Origin: Pseudomonadota bacterium
GTDB taxonomy: Bacteria; Pseudomonadota; Alphaproteobacteria; Rhodospirillales; Magnetospirillaceae
NCBI GenBank assembly: GCA_021847015.1
Contig: JAJZVW010000017.1
Location: 1-64,000, forward strand
DNA: 64,000 nucleotides
Reading direction: 5' to 3'
Shown here: positions 3,333-12,459 of the stretch, piece by piece
Layout: each line of letters begins with the position of its first letter
Position numbering within the stretch: position 1 is the stretch's first letter
Program-made: the position numbers and the translations under genes
The notes under the pieces: model-generated
Databases searched by the model: none
The model's input: only the letters and a program-made list of their open reading frames with translations
Told to the model about the DNA's origin: nothing

Positions 3333-5129
3333 TCAGACGACGGCCACCGAGGCGACGGGCGCGCCGTCGGGACCGTAGAGGTGGGTGGCGCAGGCCAGGC
3401 ACGGGTCGAAGCTGTGGATGACCCGCAGCACTTCGAGCGGACGGGCGGGATCGGCCAGGGGAAGGTCGAGCAGCGACGCCTCCAGCGCGCCGATCCGGCC
3501 TTCGCCGTCCCGCGGCGACGCGTTCCAGGTGGTCGGCACCACGCATTGGTAATTGGCGATCTTGCCGTCCTGGATGACCACCCAGTGCCCGAGGGCGCCG
3601 CGCGGCGCCTCGCAGAAGCCGGCTCCCTTGGCGGTCGCCGGCCACGTGCCGGGCTCCCATTTCTCGGTGTTGGCGGTGTTGACGTCGCCGTTGCGGATAT
3701 TGGCGACCAGCCGATCGACCGCCTCCACCAGCCGGTCGGCCGCCCATTGCGTCTCCAGGCCGCGGGCGGCGGTGCGTCCGAGCGTCGAGAACAGCGCCGG
3801 CAGAGGCACGTTCAGCGTCTTCAGGGCGCCGTCGACCAACTCCTTGACCTCGCCCCGTCCGGCCGCATAGGCCACGACCATGCGGGCCAGCGGCCCGACC
3901 TCCATGGCCTGGCCCTTGAACCGGGGGGCCTTGACGTAGGTGTATTTGGCCCCCTCGTCGACGCGGTGCAGCCTGTCCTCGTCGATGACCGCGTGCGGGC
4001 CCTGGCGGAAGTCGATTTCGGTGATGCCGTCCCAGGGGTGCAGGCCCTTGGTCTCGTCGGGATATTTGTACCAGGCGTGGGGAACGAACTCCTGGATGTG
4101 GGACGGGTCCTTGAGATCCACCTCGTGCAGCCGCGCCAGGTCGCCGCCGAGGATGGCGCCGCGGGGCAAGCCCAGGCTGTCGTTGGAGGCGTCGTTGGCG
4201 CGTTGCGGGAACTCGCCGTAGGACATCAGATTGGTCGCCGACAGGCCGCCGCCCCATTTGGCCCAATCCTTGTAGAAGGACGCGATGGCCAGCAGGTCCG
4301 GAATATAGACCTGCGTGACGAACTCGCGGGCCTTGCGGGCGATGTCCGCCACCACGGCGATGCGTTCGATGTTCAGCGCGCCGACCGCTCCCGCGTTGCC
4401 CACGTTGATCGCCGAGGGCACACCGCCCACCAGCCAATGGGGATGCGGGTTCTTGCCGGCCAGCACGGTCTGGATCTTGACGATCTCGCGCTGGAAATCC
4501 AGAGCCTCCAGGTAATGCGCCACCGCCATCAAATTGGCTTCGGCCGGCAGCTTGTAGGCCGGATGGCCCCAGTAGCCGTTGCGGAATGGCCCCAACTGGC
4601 CGGACTGGACGAAACGCGCGAGCTTGGCCTGCGTCTCCTTGAAATAGCCGGGCGAGCTTTTCGGCCAGGGCGAGATGCTCTGGGCGAGTTGGCTGGTGGC
4701 GGCGGCGGCGGCGTTGAGGGCCGAAACCACGTCCACCCAGTCGAGCGCGTGCAGGTGGTAGAAATGGACCAGATGGTCGTGGACGTAGAGGGTGAGGTGA
4801 AGGATGTTGCGGATCAGGTTGGCGTTCTCGGGGATGGGGATGCCGAGCGCGTCCTCCACCGCGCGCACCGAAGCCAGGGCGTGAACCCCGGTGCAGACGC
4901 CGCAGATGCGCTGGCAGAAGGCCCAGGCGTCGCGCGGGTCGCGCCCCCGCAGGATCGTCTCCAGCCCCCGCCACATGGTGCCGACCGAAACGGCGTTGCG
5001 CACGACGTTGGCGTTGTCCACGTTGAGTTCGATGCGCAGATGCCCTTCGATCCGGGTGATCGGGTCGATCACCACCCGGCGGCCGCTGTCGTCGGTCTGG
5101 AAACCGTTGGGACTCTTCGTCACGGTCAT
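3333..5129 (-). CDS. hupL: Uptake [NiFe] hydrogenase large subunit HupL
   Basis: 598 aa, the usual length. The two Ni-binding CxxC motifs are present: RICGVC near residue 80 and DPCLACATH near the C-terminus, followed by a 16-residue tail that HupD would remove after His. [12 protein letters not shown] at the N-terminus is the family signature. With HupS it forms a periplasmic, membrane-attached group 1 uptake hydrogenase that oxidises H2 and feeds the quinone pool through HupC. Four bases separate it from hupS. Nothing is missing that would suggest inactivity. Confidence 0.96.
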
Positions 5130-5133
5130 GTCT

Positions 5134-6273
5134 TCATCCCTTGTCCGGGGCGTCGTCGGGATCGTCCGTCCCGGTGTGATCGTTCTTGCGGACCAGCCGC
5201 TTGGCCGCGGTCAGGCCGGCATGCCCGGCCATCAAGGTGCCCAATCCGGTCGCTGCGGCGAGGCCAACCGTGTCGGCATTGGCCTCAACCCCGAACTGCC
5301 GCATCGACGGCAGGCGTTCGTAGAAGGGGCCGCGATCCCAGAACCCTTCCTCGGAACAGCCGATGCAGCCGTGCCCGGACTTGATCGGGAACGAGACGCC
5401 GTCGTTCCAGCCGATGGTCGAGCAGGCGTTGTAGGTGGTGGGGCCGCGGCAGCCCATCTTGTACAGGCAGTAGCCGAGCCGGGCCCCCTCGTCGTCCCAG
5501 TTCTCGACGAACTGCCCGGCGTCGAAATGGGCGCGGCGGTAGCACTTGTCGTGGATGCGCTGCCCGTAGAACATCTTGGGCCGCAACTGGCGGTCCACCT
5601 CGGGCAGCCGGTCGAAGGTGAGCATGTAGCTGATGACGCCCGTCATCACCTCGGCGATGGGGGGACACCCGGGGACGTTGACCACCGGCACGTCGCGGAT
5701 CAGCTTGGAAACGGGAGTGGCCTTGGTCGGGTTGGGGGCGGCCGCCTGCACGCAGCCGAAGGAAGCGCAGGTTCCCCAGGCCACCACCGCCTTGGCGTGG
5801 CGCGCGGCCTCCTCCAGGCGGCGGTGGAACGGCCGTCCGCCGACGATGCAGTGCCAGCCGCCGTTGGCGAGAGGGGCGTTGCCTTCGACCGCCAGCAGGT
5901 AGCTGCCTTTGTAATCACGCATGATCTCGTCGATGATGGCTTCGGCCTGATCGCCGGCGGCGGCCATGATGGTGTCGTCGTAATCGAGCGAAATCATCGA
6001 CAGCACGACGTCCGACGTCTGTGGATGGCTGGAGCGCAGGAAACTCTCGGAGCAGCAGGTGCATTCCAGGCCGTGCAGCCACAGCACCGGCAGACGGGGC
6101 TTGGTTTCGAGGGCGTGGGCGACCCGGCCCGGCCCATCCGGCCCCAGCCCCATCATCACCGCCATCGACGCGCAGAAGCCGAGGAAGTCGCGCCGCGAGA
6201 CGCCGCGTTCGGCCATCGCCTCGGCCGTCGTCTTGAGCCGGGCGGCCGGGGAAGTGGGGGAGGGCTTCGGCAA
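5134..6273 (-). CDS. hupS: Uptake [NiFe] hydrogenase small subunit HupS, Tat-exported
   Basis: 379 aa. A twin-arginine signal is visible (SRRDFLGF near residue 27, then a hydrophobic stretch to about residue 50). The FeS cluster ligands are present: [10 protein letters not shown] at the start of the mature part, then Cys/His groups in [20 protein letters not shown] and [15 protein letters not shown]-terminal hydrophobic helix ([21 protein letters not shown]) should anchor it to the membrane. The start is a TTG at 6273, chosen because a strong AGGAGA lies 6 nt upstream. That ribosome site overlaps the stop codon of the chemoreceptor gene in front, so the two genes are probably cotranscribed. 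Confidence 0.93.
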
Positions 6274-8010: not shown

Positions 8011-8442
8011 GAAGCCCCCCTGTCGTAGCCGGAATCCGACTGCTGACCGCAATCTCCCCAAGGAGAAGCATACTAATGATTTAACAGTGTGGAAAGCGGA
8101 TTCAAACAATTGTAGTTTTTCTTAAAATTGCTTGGAAATACCGTGGGCGGGATGCCCATTGCCCCGACTCCTCGCCTTTTGGCGCCCCGAAACGATGAAG
8201 GCCCCGCTTCCCCACCTGTTTCCAGGCGGGAAGGGGGCCTCCAAGGGGATCCGCGAGAGGGAGGGCTAATCTCCCCCTCCACCATCCCTTTCGGGTATGT
8301 TTCGGGTTCGACCGGCCCTACTCGCGGGTCCTGGGGGGTGATGTGGGGCCGCCGGTTCCGGGGCAAAGGGGATCATCCCGAAGCGCTCCTGCGCGCTCCT
8401 TCGGCGCAGGGGCCCCGACCGTCCGCCGCTGGCGAAAGCGGC
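8011..8442. other. Intergenic stretch without a gene
   Basis: This is divergent spacer between the chemoreceptor/hydrogenase unit and the riboswitch locus. The part next to the chemoreceptor (8040-8145) is AT-richer and should hold its promoter, though no clear boxes stand out. From about 8150 to 8420 the sequence is full of short GC-rich inverted pieces (for example aggcgggaagggggcc, and gcgctcctgcgcgctccttcggcgcagg). Open frames here give low-complexity translations and have no ribosome sites, so I call no gene. Confidence 0.6.
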
Positions 8443-8472
8443 TTGACAGCGCGTGGCGCCCAGCCTTATCCA
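8443..8472 (+). promoter_or_regulatory. Predicted sigma70-type promoter of the riboswitch-cbpAB transcript
   Basis: TTGACA at 8443-8448 and TATCCA at 8467-8472 are separated by 18 bp. The predicted start of transcription, about 8479, falls exactly at the P1 stem of the riboswitch that follows. Confidence 0.55.
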
Positions 8473-8477
8473 ACGCC

Positions 8478-8633
8478 ATCCAGCATCCCGGAACACGGTG
8501 CAATTCCGTGGCGGTCCCGCCGCTGTAATCGGGGACGACGGCTGCACGGCGACGAGCCGGCCACTAGCGGGGAATTCCCCGCCGGGAAGGCGCAGTCCGA
8601 CGGACGATCCGAGAGCCAGAAGACCTGCTGGAT
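8478..8633 (+). promoter_or_regulatory. Cobalamin riboswitch
   Basis: Core elements of the AdoCbl-type riboswitch are readable in order: a P1 strand ATCCAGCA (8478-8485), the conserved box cggtgcaattccgtggcgg, then cccgccgctgtaatcgggga, and the 3' box gagccagaagacctgc followed by TGCTGGAT (8626-8633), which pairs perfectly with the first strand. Downstream, a GC hairpin at 8672-8693 (arms CGGCGGG/CCCGCCG) could serve as part of the expression platform; it has no U-tract. The next gene is cbpA at 8722. Binding of a B12 coenzyme would normally lower expression of the genes behind it. Confidence 0.93.
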
Positions 8634-8721
8634 CGGAATCACGAGGGGCGAAATCCGATGGAAAAGGGTTTCGGCGGGGCCGTGCGCCCGCCGACGCCCT
8701 TCACAGGCATCGGAGAACGCC

Positions 8722-8865
8722 ATGGAACAGACCGCCAACACCAGGAAGCCCAAGGGAAAGCCGGCCCAACCGCGGCCGGACGTCATCGCCATCCGCAAGA
8801 CCTGCGACGCCGAAGGAACCGGCCTGTCCCACTACGTCCTCATGGACAAGGCGGTGACGCGGTGA
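8722..8865 (+). CDS. cbpA: Modified-peptide precursor, CbpA-like
   Basis: A 47-aa peptide with a ggag ribosome site 7 nt before its ATG. The N-terminal half is basic and Pro/Lys-rich (TRKPKGKPAQPRPD), like a leader. The C-terminal half holds the only cysteine, C28, in IRKTCDAEGTGLSHYVLMDK. I recognise this as the small substrate of the radical SAM enzyme behind it; from memory it matches the NCBI families named CbpA/CbpB, which occur near cobalamin riboswitches. Its stop overlaps the cbpB start. The modification and the role of the product are not known to me; a link to cobalt or B12 supply is inferred from the riboswitch. Confidence 0.7.
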   Translation: MEQTANTRKPKGKPAQPRPDVIAIRKTCDAEGTGLSHYVLMDKAVTR

Positions 8866-10259
8866 CGGCGGGGATTGGTCCGGTGCCGGCGGAGGGGCCA
8901 TCCCCCGGCACTCTCGCGCCGCTGGTACCTTTCGACATCGGCCATCCAACCCATGTCGCCCTGATCGAACCCGATTCGGCGTTCTGGGGGCTGGTGCGCA
9001 AGGATCGGCTGGCCGACGCGCAGGCGGGCGGCCAACTGCTCGACGCCTTCCACGCCAAGGCCGGGACATTCGCCGGCGAGATGGACATGCTGCGGTTCCG
9101 CGTCCGGCCGTCGGCGGTCTATTTCAATCCCACCGAGCGCTGCAACCTCAATTGCTCCTATTGCTATATTCCCGGGGGGATGAGGCGCGGCGGCGTTCAG
9201 ATGGACACCGCCGCGGTACTCGCCGCCCTCGACCGCCTGCATCGCTATTTCCGCGCCCACATGCCGGCGGAGCGGTTGCCTCAGGTCATCTTCCACGGAG
9301 CCGAACCCTTGCTGGCGCGGGAGGCGATCTTCGCCGGCATCGAAGCCTATGGCGACCGCTTCCGCTTCGGCGTGCAGACCAACGCCACCCTGCTCGACGA
9401 GGCGGCGGCGGCGTTCCTGACCGCGCGCGGCGTCGGCATCGGCCTGTCGCTCGACGGGCCGACCGCCGCCGTCGCCGACCGCACGCGGCGGCGCTGGAGT
9501 GGGGATGGCGTGTTCGACCGGGTGGTTCGCGCCATCGAACGGCTGGATGGCTATCCAGGGTTCAACGTCATCTGCACGATGACCTCGCGGAACCTGCCGC
9601 ACCTCACCGCGATGGTGGAATTCTTCCACGGCCGCCGGGTCCCGGCCTGCATGCTCAACATCACCCGCTGCACCCTGCCCGGGGCCCGCGCCGTGCGCGG
9701 CGGCGACGACGAGGTGTGGCGGGCGTACCTCGCCGCGCTCGAACGGACTCACGAGCTTTATCGCGAAAGCGGGCGCAAACTGGTGGTGGCCAACTTCGCC
9801 AACATCCTGATCGCGATCCTGGCGCCGACGGCGCGGCGGCTGATGTGCGACATTTCGCCCTGCGGCGGCGGACGCGGCTTCTTCGCCCTGGCTCCCAACG
9901 GCGACCTCTTCCCATGCAGCGAATTCATCGGGCTGCCCGCGTTCGCCGGCGGCAACCTGTTCCGGCAGCCGGTCGAGGAGATCCTCGACAGCCCGCCCTT
10001 CCGCCTGGTCACCGGCCGCAAGGTCGAGGACGTGGCCGGCTGCGACATCTGTCCGGTCCGCCATTTCTGCGGATCGCCCTGTCCGGCCGAGGCGCACGAG
10101 ATGAACGGCGGGATGGGACGGAAAGGGGCGTTCTGCCGGTTCTACGAGGAGCAGGCGCGCTACGCCTTCCGGTTGATCGCCGACGGAAGGCACGAAGACT
10201 TCCTGTGGGATGGATGGGACGAGGGCACCGAGGCGATCTGCTCGATCGGCACGGCCTAA
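8862..10259 (+). CDS. cbpB: Peptide-modifying radical SAM/SPASM enzyme, CbpB-like
   Basis: 465 aa with a GTG start overlapping the cbpA stop (GTGA). The radical SAM CxxxCxxC motif is C94-x3-C98-x2-C101 (RCNLNCSYCY). The C-terminal third is a SPASM domain with many cysteines: MCDISPCGGG, LFPCSEFIG, GCDICPVRHFCGSPCPAEAHE and FCRFYEEQ, enough for auxiliary FeS clusters. Such enzymes install thioether or C-C links in short peptides; CbpA beside it is the obvious substrate. The N-terminal 90 residues before the motif could bind the leader. The gene ends 37 nt before convergent cysC, so the operon seems to have only these two genes. Confidence 0.82.
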   Translation: MTAGIGPVPAEGPSPGTLAPLVPFDIGHPTHVALIEPDSAFWGLVRKDRLADAQAGGQLLDAFHAKAGTFAGEMDMLRFRVRPSAVYFNPTERCNLNCSYCYIPGGMRRGGVQMDTAAVLAALDRLHRYFRAHMPAERLPQVIFHGAEPLLAREAIFAGIEAYGDRFRFGVQTNATLLDEAAAAFLTARGVGIGLSLDGPTAAVADRTRRRWSGDGVFDRVVRAIERLDGYPGFNVICTMTSRNLPHLTAMVEFFHGRRVPACMLNITRCTLPGARAVRGGDDEVWRAYLAALERTHELYRESGRKLVVANFANILIAILAPTARRLMCDISPCGGGRGFFALAPNGDLFPCSEFIGLPAFAGGNLFRQPVEEILDSPPFRLVTGRKVEDVAGCDICPVRHFCGSPCPAEAHEMNGGMGRKGAFCRFYEEQARYAFRLIADGRHEDFLWDGWDEGTEAICSIGTA

Positions 10260-10296
10260 CCCGGATTTCTCTGCGCGCGCCCTCGTCGCACGGACC

Positions 10297-10905
10297 CTAC
10301 GCTCCGCCGTCGATGGCGAAGGCCGTGCCGGCGTAGCGGACCAAGGCCTCCAGGCAATCGGCGACCGGCGAGTGTCCCGTCTCCACCACCAGTTCGGGCG
10401 CAAGCGGCGGCTCGTAGGGCGCGGAGATGCCGGTGAACTCGGCGATCCCCCCGGCACGGGCCCGGGCGTAGAGGCCCTTGGGGTCGCGCCGCTCGCAGAC
10501 GGCGAGGTCGGCGGCCAGGTGAATCTCGTGGAACATGCCCCCCGCCTGGGCGCGTATGCGGTCGCGGTCGGCCCGGTAGGGCGAGATGAAGGCGGCGACC
10601 ACCAGCGTCCCGCCCTTGGCCATCAGCAGCGCCGCCTCGCCGACGCGGCGGATGTTCTCGGCGCGGTCGCCCGGGCTGAAGCCGAGATCGGCGCACAGGC
10701 CGTGGCGCACGTCGTCGCCGTCCAGCATCAGCACCTGCCAGCGGGCGTCGAACAGCCGCCGCTCCAGGCCCGCCGCCAGCGTCGATTTGCCCGATGCCGA
10801 CAGCCCGGTCAGCCACAGGATGCCGCCGCGATGGCCGTTGCGCCGCTCGCGTTCGGGCAAGGCAAGGTGGCGGTCGGGGCGGGTGATGTGTGGGGAGGGC
10901 GTCAC
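10297..10905 (-). CDS. cysC: Adenylyl-sulfate kinase CysC
   Basis: About 202 aa. The P-loop GLSASGKST is near the N-terminus, followed by LDGDDVRHGL, FISPYRADRD and DPKGLYARARAG..FTGISAPYEPP, all typical of APS kinase, which phosphorylates adenylyl sulfate to PAPS in the cytoplasm. The GTG at 10905 gives VTPSPHITRPDRH, which resembles other family starts; a TTG at 10920 would add five residues. No cysND or cysH genes are near, so it stands alone here, convergent to cbpB. Confidence 0.9.
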   Translation of the reverse strand: MTPSPHITRPDRHLALPERERRNGHRGGILWLTGLSASGKSTLAAGLERRLFDARWQVLMLDGDDVRHGLCADLGFSPGDRAENIRRVGEAALLMAKGGTLVVAAFISPYRADRDRIRAQAGGMFHEIHLAADLAVCERRDPKGLYARARAGGIAEFTGISAPYEPPLAPELVVETGHSPVADCLEALVRYAGTAFAIDGGA

Positions 10906-11311
10906 TGGGAGCGGGTCCAAACCGATGAATTACCGCTCCACGATATCGGTCCGCGCCCCAGTTTCAAGTTTCGAAGCGGTGCGACGGTATCTTCTTTGGG
11001 CGTGGGGGCGGGCCTCATCATGCGCCTGACGAAGCCAGCCGGGATGGAAAACGCGACGGGATTACCGGCGATGTCCGTTGGTTCGCGCGAGGAAAACCGC
11101 GTTGCACGAGTGGCCAATTGGCGGAGAGCCGGCCACCCGGCTTGAACATTCTTCCTGATCGGGCCCGATCCGCGACGCCCTGGAGGAGCGAGCCTACCCG
11201 CACGATCCTGCCGACAAACCTCGGCGGATGGGTTGGCTGCCGAGCCCTGGCGAAACCATGCCGGGCATGCTATGTATTACCCGTCGTTATTCAGGTATTA
11301 CCGAGGCGGAA
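10906..11311. promoter_or_regulatory. cysC-vapB intergenic region with a possible vapBC operator
   Basis: No gene is seen in these 400 bases. Just before vapB, GTATTACC occurs twice in direct orientation (11274-11281 and 11295-11302), 21 bp or two helical turns apart, in an AT-richer pocket. Direct or inverted repeats in front of vapB are where VapBC complexes usually bind to repress themselves, so this pair is a candidate operator. Confidence 0.35.
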
Positions 11312-11545
11312 ATGGCCACAACGGTTACCCGCAAGGGTCAGGTTACCATCCCAAAGCCGGTCCGCGACCGGCTCGGGATCAAGGCTGGCAGCGCGGTCGT
11401 GTTCGAACTGGCGCCGGATGGTCGTGTCGTTCTGATCAAGGTGGAGGCTGGCCGCCCGGTGAGCCGGTTCGAGGCTCTGCGGGGCCGTGCTGGAAAAGGG
11501 CTCAGCACCGACGAGATCATGGCACTGACGCGCGGTGAGAACTGA
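11312..11545 (+). CDS. vapB: VapB-type AbrB/MazE-fold antitoxin
   Basis: 77 aa. The N-terminal swapped-hairpin DNA-binding fold is plain in TTVTRKGQVTIPKPVRDRLGI and GSAVVFELAPDGRVVLIK. The C-terminal tail (RGRAGKGLSTDEIMALTRGEN) is the flexible part that would block the toxin. The ATG at 11312 has a gaggcgga ribosome site; frames extending upstream to 11228 lack one. It is followed at once by a PIN toxin, as in vapBC operons. Confidence 0.88.
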   Translation: MATTVTRKGQVTIPKPVRDRLGIKAGSAVVFELAPDGRVVLIKVEAGRPVSRFEALRGRAGKGLSTDEIMALTRGEN

Positions 11546-11546
11546 G

Positions 11547-11951
11547 GTGACTCTGGTCGATACCAACGTCCTGTTGGACCTCGTCACCGACGATCCCGTT
11601 TGGGCGGACTGGTCGATCCGGCAACTGGACATCGCCGCGATCAAGGGGCCGCTCGCCATCAACGGCGTGGTCTACGCCGAGTTGTCGGTGCGCTTCGAGC
11701 GGATCGAGGCACTTGAAAAGGTGTTGGCGGAATCCGGGATCGCTCTGGAGGAGATTCCGCGTGCCGCCCTGTTCCTGGCGGGCAAAGCTTTCCAGCGTTA
11801 TCGCTCTGCCGGTGGCATCCGCAACGGCGTCCTGCCGGACTTCTTCATCGGGGCGCATGCCGCCGTTGCCGGTCTGCCCCTCTTAACCCGCGACGTCCAG
11901 CGTTATCGGACCCATTTCCCGTCCATCAACCTGATCGCACCCCAGACGTAG
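11547..11951 (+). CDS. vapC: VapC-type PIN-domain ribonuclease toxin
   Basis: 134 aa. The acidic residues that bind the metal in PIN nucleases can be placed: LVDTNVLLDL (Asp near residue 4), VVYAELSVRFE (Glu near 43), LPDFFIGAHA (Asp near 97) and LLTRDVQRYRTHFP (Asp near 113). I use the GTG at 11547, which gives VTLVDTN, a common VapC start, one nt after the vapB stop; GTG 11535 would overlap vapB by 11 nt. The toxin should cleave RNA, often initiator tRNA, when VapB is lost. Confidence 0.87.
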   Translation: MTLVDTNVLLDLVTDDPVWADWSIRQLDIAAIKGPLAINGVVYAELSVRFERIEALEKVLAESGIALEEIPRAALFLAGKAFQRYRSAGGIRNGVLPDFFIGAHAAVAGLPLLTRDVQRYRTHFPSINLIAPQT

Positions 11952-12459
11952 CCTGCGGCATAATATATTGGGGTAAATAAGTAATAAAACCGTGACCTTC
12001 CGTCGCATCGCCCCGGGAAAACCGGGCCGCAAGACAGCCCTCCCCGATCGCTGCCGCAACACCGGGCGGGGCGCCACAGCCGCAACAGGGACGACGCATT
12101 TCCGACGAGTCCTGCGGAGCCTTTGGTGGTATAAGGGCAGCCACGCAACCAGCCGCGGATTGAGCTTGCCAACCGTCCATGAACCCGGCGCCCACGCGGG
12201 ACTGGGGGGCTGGTCCAAAGCCGCCTGGCTGGCAAGGCAGTACGACCAATCGTCACTCGTCCGGGGCGCTTGGCGGGCACCCGCCACGCGCTCCCGGCGG
12301 TCGCCATACCGTCCCCGCCAAGGGCGCACGACTGACATGGCCGCATCAATCGCCATCCATCCCAAGATAGAGCCGGCCGGCTACGGGCTGGAAACGGCGC
12401 GGAACCTGAGAGGTTCGTGCATCCGCCCCAAGGCGGAGAATGAATTGCCTGGAAGTTAA
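11952..12459. other. Intergenic stretch without a recognisable gene
   Basis: About 500 bases between vapC and tRNA-Ser. It contains small hairpins (cccgggaaaaccggg, gaacctgagaggttc, and gccttggggcg on the minus strand) but no tRNA, SRP, tmRNA or RNase P signature that I can recognise. Open frames on both strands are unsupported by ribosome sites or protein-like composition. It may be decayed sequence. Confidence 0.5.

Follow-up and report, generated by a model that had tools for sequence, protein, structure and literature searches.

The cobalamin riboswitch, the precursor gene cbpA and the SPASM maturase gene cbpB were found to form one conserved unit in many phyla. From its sequence, the cbp riboswitch is probably of the activating kind, such that B12 would induce rather than repress the two genes. 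The whole was read as a corrinoid-switched two-gene peptide-modification module with a product in late corrinoid metabolism, and a probability of about 0.5 was assigned to this reading. The likely sign of cbpAB control is new and testable. The starting point was a stretch of 64,000 nucleotides, referred to below as the window.

All parts of the window locus lie on the plus strand. The Rfam covariance model RF00174 matched positions 8490-8624 with 73.5 bits (gathering score 31.5; E 3.2e-16 for the 64-kb window), which bears out the cobalamin riboswitch proposed in the preliminary description. Once P1 (8478-8485 paired with 8626-8633) is included, the aptamer extends over about 8478-8633, and L5 (UCCCG, 8515-8519) and the B12 box AGCCAGAAGACC (8614-8625) were also read directly. 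The P13-L13 hairpin at 8649-8673 was proposed to be the ligand-bound (ON) element from its pairing in alphaproteobacterial loci and the covariation of the homologous hairpin in 28 distant loci. It consists of the 5' strand CGAAATCC (8649-8656), the loop GATGGAAAA (8657-8665) and the 3' strand GGGTTTCG (8666-8673). The predicted minimum-energy fold and the conservation of pairing point to a competing helix of TCCGATG (8654-8660) with CATCGGA (8708-8714), which would cover the Shine-Dalgarno (SD) sequence GGAG (8712-8715); its 5' strand has TCC in common with P13 and GATG with L13. The cbpA gene (8722-8865) encodes a 47-residue precursor, MEQTANTRKPKGKPAQPRPDVIAIRKTCDAEGTGLSHYVLMDKAVTR, with a single Cys at position 28. 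The GTG start of cbpB (8862-10259), which encodes a 465-residue radical SAM/SPASM peptide-modifying enzyme, overlaps the cbpA stop by 4 nt, and the unit contains no transporter or protease gene; on these points the preliminary description was accurate. Of the promoter that it had placed upstream, what stood was TTGACA at 8443-8448, a weakly supported candidate −35 element, while a sigma-70 consensus scan of 8110-10420 gave no complete match.

By inspection, cbpAB is flanked in the window by two minus-strand genes, one for a chemoreceptor and one for a CysC-like kinase. Positions 11228-11951 of the window resemble a toxin-antitoxin gene pair, with an AbrB-type antitoxin and a PIN-domain toxin. 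Genes for the large and small subunits of an uptake [NiFe] hydrogenase, with a maturation protease downstream, were recognized by inspection on the minus strand at 3333-6273; [NiFe] hydrogenase genes likewise lie downstream of cbpB in another locus (L054).

The names given to the two proteins in the preliminary description were confirmed by profile searches. CbpA matched TIGR04164 with 58.1 bits (cut-off 35) over residues 21-43, its conserved core, and CbpB matched TIGR04163 with 686.1 bits (cut-off 375) over profile positions 2-428 of 428, together with the Pfam Radical_SAM and SPASM domains. A radical SAM/SPASM enzyme was defined by the motif CX3CX2C and the SPASM cysteines (CX9-15GX4C, CX2CX5CX3C, and C). 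The corresponding residues C94, C98, C101, C334 and C352 were invariant in 72 CbpB sequences, as were C394, C397, C403, C407 and C425. The predicted structure of CbpB (pLDDT 88) was nearest to CteB, an anaerobic sulfatase maturase and ChlB in a structure search, and CbpB may plausibly have an N-terminal recognition domain like that of CteB. A search of the open literature found no paper on CbpA or CbpB; the string "CbpB" in PMC12727194 is unrelated to this enzyme.

A scan of a genome collection yielded 374 relatives, and the counts that follow rest on 80 of these. The loci come from Alpha-, Beta-, Gamma- and Deltaproteobacteria, Desulfovibrionaceae, Nitrospirae/Nitrospinota, Planctomycetota, Verrucomicrobia, Lentisphaerae, Kiritimatiellaeota, Chloroflexi and Bacillota, with the proviso that many source genomes are metagenome bins and single taxon assignments may be wrong. 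CbpA was encoded upstream of CbpB in 79 of the 80 loci, the exception (L035) being cut by a contig end. The 79 precursors have a near-invariant core, RKxCxxxG(T/V)GLSH(Y/F), in which R(−3), C(0) and the following G, G, L, S, H and aromatic residue are common to all 79; the core has no hypervariable part across phyla and is followed by a tail of just 8-15 residues. One precursor (L070, about 2227-2461) carries two tandem core copies. Closer to the host, cbpB was present in 15 of 61 genomes of its order and family, and among 385 genomes sampled evenly from its class the host alone had it. A single record, from Methylovirgula sp. HY1, was plasmid borne.

The cobalamin riboswitch is a near-constant, typical feature of the family. 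RF00174 was matched directly upstream of cbpAB in 52 of 63 loci and at the head of a longer operon in three further loci (L055, L082 and L089). It was absent upstream in the remaining eight (L010, L046, L073, L076, L080, L084, L090 and L092), four of which have less than 450 bases of upstream DNA; two of these four still show a B12 box or P13. The genome of L010 (G044) has cbpAB and no RF00174 match genome-wide. In that genome, cobB and cbiD lie 13-17 kb from cbpAB on the same contig. B12 control of such a peptide had earlier been called unexpected, a view that does not hold for a family in which the riboswitch is near-constant and cbpAB often lies among cobalamin biosynthesis genes.

The direction of the switch was deduced mainly from the loci outside the Alphaproteobacteria, in which P1 is followed by a hairpin with the conserved loop AYGGNAA. 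By the experimental rule for corrinoid riboswitches, activation is indicated where the P13 3' strand shares sequence with the 5' side of the terminator (PMC10653944). In 42 of 43 terminator-type cbp loci, the 5' arm of the terminator was formed by the P13 3' strand, a count obtained with a P13 search that relied on the L13 motif and was thus not blind, and in which the "P13" of L057 is a false match. The terminators have energies of about −20 to −43 kcal/mol; for L046 and L051 the values are truncated, the terminator end having been set at an early T-run, and the full terminator of these two was read by eye. Among 28 aligned distant leaders, two-sided changes were found at 11 of 13 terminator pairs, a number reached in none of 500 shuffles, and at 4 of 8 P13 pairs, six leaders with a different P13 register having been left out of the alignment. 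When the rule was applied without the L13 motif, P13 and terminator overlapped in 17 of 20 cbp riboswitches. Other cobalamin riboswitches with a terminator in these genomes showed the overlap in 4 of 14 cases. The three cbp failures were L091 (L176), where the overlap is visible by eye, L087 (L160), with a P13 of 4 bp, and L051 (L180), where the hairpin was wrongly chosen. The L5 sequence CCCG can pair with UGG or CGG (YGG) of L13 in 58 of the 58 loci where both were found. This predicted kissing interaction would comprise 3 pairs only, as many as in the proven case of P. megaterium metE (PMC10653944). Taken together, these sequence features make it likely that the terminator-type cbp leaders activate with corrinoid.

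Of the four overlapping riboswitches outside cbp loci, one (L158; G459:C208:4531-4711) precedes cobT in a Syntrophaceae genome, and a fifth, of cbp type by eye (L203; G445:C71:98661-98865), precedes cobT in a Humidesulfovibrio genome; both are predicted to be activating cobalamin riboswitches on cobT, as in the Alkalihalobacillus halodurans case. Another of the four (L179/L209; G447:C417:4792-4975) has the cbp-type hairpin with the same P13 and terminator and by inspection precedes genes for an alcohol dehydrogenase and a TrpD-like phosphoribosyltransferase. A separate cobalamin riboswitch, at 8746-8992 of L112 (G018:C1:193745-193991, minus strand), lies directly upstream of an OprB-family porin gene.

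The alphaproteobacterial cbp leaders, including that of the window, are without a terminator. All 8 pairs of P13 form in 20 of 20 aligned alphaproteobacterial loci. The competing helix over the SD sequence, which would use the P13 5' strand and L13, had 96.4% of cells paired with one compensatory change (L020), and it appeared in the minimum-energy fold in 15 of 25 loci. When P13 was forced in a nearest-neighbor model, the SD sequence was freed in only 11 of the 25, and in the window leader it was not freed (probability of being unpaired, 0.37). The competition of P13 with the SD helix may represent the same switch logic by another means, on weaker evidence than for the terminator-type leaders, and for the window leader the balance leans towards activation by corrinoid.

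The most serious alternative is an ordinary repressing riboswitch, by which cbpAB would be expressed under B12 shortage and the modified peptide would aid the uptake or delivery of cobalt or cobalamin as a metallophore or metallochaperone. Nearly all corrinoid riboswitches that have been tested repress (PMC9600662, PMC10653944). The window genome has two cobalamin riboswitches, of which the only other one precedes the cobalt importer genes cbiM and then cbiQ, and in L089 cbpAB itself is part of the order cbiM-cbiQ-ABC ATPase-cbpAB-cobH-cbiD, with the importer genes just upstream. Against this, P13 and the terminator share a strand, the reverse of the repressing layout. That layout is present in L067 and L071, where the cob-operon riboswitch next to cbpAB has its terminator separate from P13, and the P13 3' strand is paired by the terminator 5' arm. 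Furthermore, the export and uptake or receptor genes expected of a metallophore were absent from the window unit, and no constant transporter was found beside cbpAB in other loci. Repression by B12 was deemed improbable because the expression platforms match the published activating corrinoid layout, and the loss of expression with B12 implied by the preliminary description is, on this sequence evidence, probably wrong.

The gene neighborhood ties cbpAB to cobalamin genes. Cobalamin or cobalt genes were found within 5 kb in 18 of 52 loci outside the Alphaproteobacteria and in 2 of 39 controls (Fisher p 7e-4). The controls were evenly spaced stretches of two complete genomes, both alphaproteobacterial; the flanks of the loci differ in length, the loci are not independent and the gene labels are weak in a few (L062 and L097). 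No such gene was found within 5 kb in 34 of these 52 loci or in 27 of 28 alphaproteobacterial loci, many flanks being short; the one alphaproteobacterial case was cobQ in L037. Recurrent neighboring ORF clusters were assigned by NCBIfam to cobM, cbiD, cobJ, cobB, cobI, cobT, cobQ, cobD and cobO and by Pfam to a CbiX-type chelatase, and bluB, cobU, cbiB and cbiMQO were also among the neighbors. The arrangements include cobM-cbpAB-cbiX (L055 and L082), cbpAB-bluB (L075 and L096), cbpAB-cobT (L060 and L085) and, in L070, cbpAB ahead of a second riboswitch that is followed by cobB. In L067 and L071, cbpAB and cobU-cobT-cobD-cobQ stand back to back, and each of the two has a riboswitch of its own. 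The constancy of the riboswitch and this neighborhood support the earlier suggestion of a product tied to cobalamin or cobalt. Within the bacterial family, the presence of CbpB did not correlate with that of cbiD, cbiX or bluB, since nearly every genome has these three genes whether or not it carries cbpAB. In L058, two Acido-Lenti-1 RNAs (10571-10616 and 12264-12309) lie near cbpAB.

A peptide-derived redox cofactor or catalytic peptide, comparable to PQQ or mycofactocin, for an enzyme used when B12 is available, with B12 as a cue only, would account for the near-invariance of the core across phyla, which suits a fixed product better than an antimicrobial, and for a unit with no transporter. 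It was judged quite unlikely: no constant partner enzyme lies beside cbpAB, the alphaproteobacterial neighborhoods have no recurrent partner and consist of mutually unrelated genes, the neighbors that do recur elsewhere are cobalamin genes, and protease or further tailoring genes are lacking. A signal or feedback peptide that would target enzymes or transporters of corrinoid or cobalt at high corrinoid supply is very doubtful, as no target was identified among the cbpAB loci analyzed, although corrinoid induction would suit a brake on synthesis and cbpAB in L067, L071 and L072 is back to back with the cobU-cobT-cobQ operon, itself under a repressing-type switch.

For the corrinoid-induced module, the following sequence of events is proposed. 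Upon corrinoid binding, L13 would kiss L5 and P13 would be stabilized, taking up sequence that otherwise forms an intrinsic terminator in most phyla or the SD-sequestering helix in the Alphaproteobacteria, including the window, such that cbpAB would be expressed. CbpB may then bind the variable N-terminal part of CbpA and modify the invariant core RKxCxxxGTGLSHY, for which the single Cys is the most likely site or starting point. By analogy with the CteB and PapB relatives, the modification could be a thioether cross-link. The product probably remains one chemical species and is probably not an antimicrobial, given that the core is fixed across phyla, and it would act inside the cell. The link to corrinoids is one of the genes and their riboswitch rather than of the peptide. 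Our best guess for the role of the product is late corrinoid metabolism, where it might complete, carry or buffer cobamides; the late steps are suggested because cbpAB adjoins bluB, cobT and cobU and because activating switches are predicted on cobT. The full conjunction of a large natural activating family in terminator and translational forms with a modified Cys-His peptide that would itself bind, complete or carry cobamides is distinctly unlikely to be right in every part. If true, a ribosomal peptide would be a working part of B12 metabolism. If the reading holds, it would also provide dozens more activating corrinoid riboswitches, already aligned, that span many phyla and two types of expression platform. 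The near-invariant core and the cobalamin neighborhood make this orphan peptide family testable.

With respect to known systems, the CbpA and CbpB families are already named in NCBIfam, and the window proteins are members of TIGR04164 (modified peptide precursor CbpA, cobo_pep) and TIGR04163 (peptide-modifying radical SAM enzyme CbpB, rSAM_cobopep), respectively; what is added here is the riboswitch sign, the gene neighborhoods and the phylum range. The closest solved fold to CbpB is that of CteB, a thioether-forming SPASM maturase (PDB 5wgg; Foldseek E 5.7e-19, TM 0.67/0.71), which is also its best sequence match in the PDB at 17% identity. Both enzymes combine radical SAM and SPASM domains with an N-terminal extension. 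CteA, the substrate of CteB, is Cys-rich, whereas CbpA has one conserved Cys. The next best NCBIfam models for CbpB were those of the ranthipeptide maturase PapB (NF047865) and DynA (NF041298), with scores of 124.3 and 115 bits, far under the respective cut-offs of 340 and 450. PapB joins Cys to Asp or Glu (PMC9413430). A linkage of this type was rejected for CbpA as no invariant acidic residue follows the Cys, position +3 being E, D, A, K, N or R.

The riboswitch of A. halodurans cobT was the first proven activating corrinoid riboswitch and, as of the 2023 study, the only natural one known (PMC10653944). It and the terminator-type cbp leaders have in common a P13 3' strand that lies within the terminator 5' side, with P13 as the antiterminator, and an L5-L13 kissing loop, both of these roles being predicted for the cbp leaders. 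The cbp leaders differ in preceding a peptide-enzyme pair in many phyla rather than cobT in one species, in an aptamer subtype with the B12 box CAGAAGACC and the loop AYGGNAA, and in a proposed translational form in the Alphaproteobacteria.
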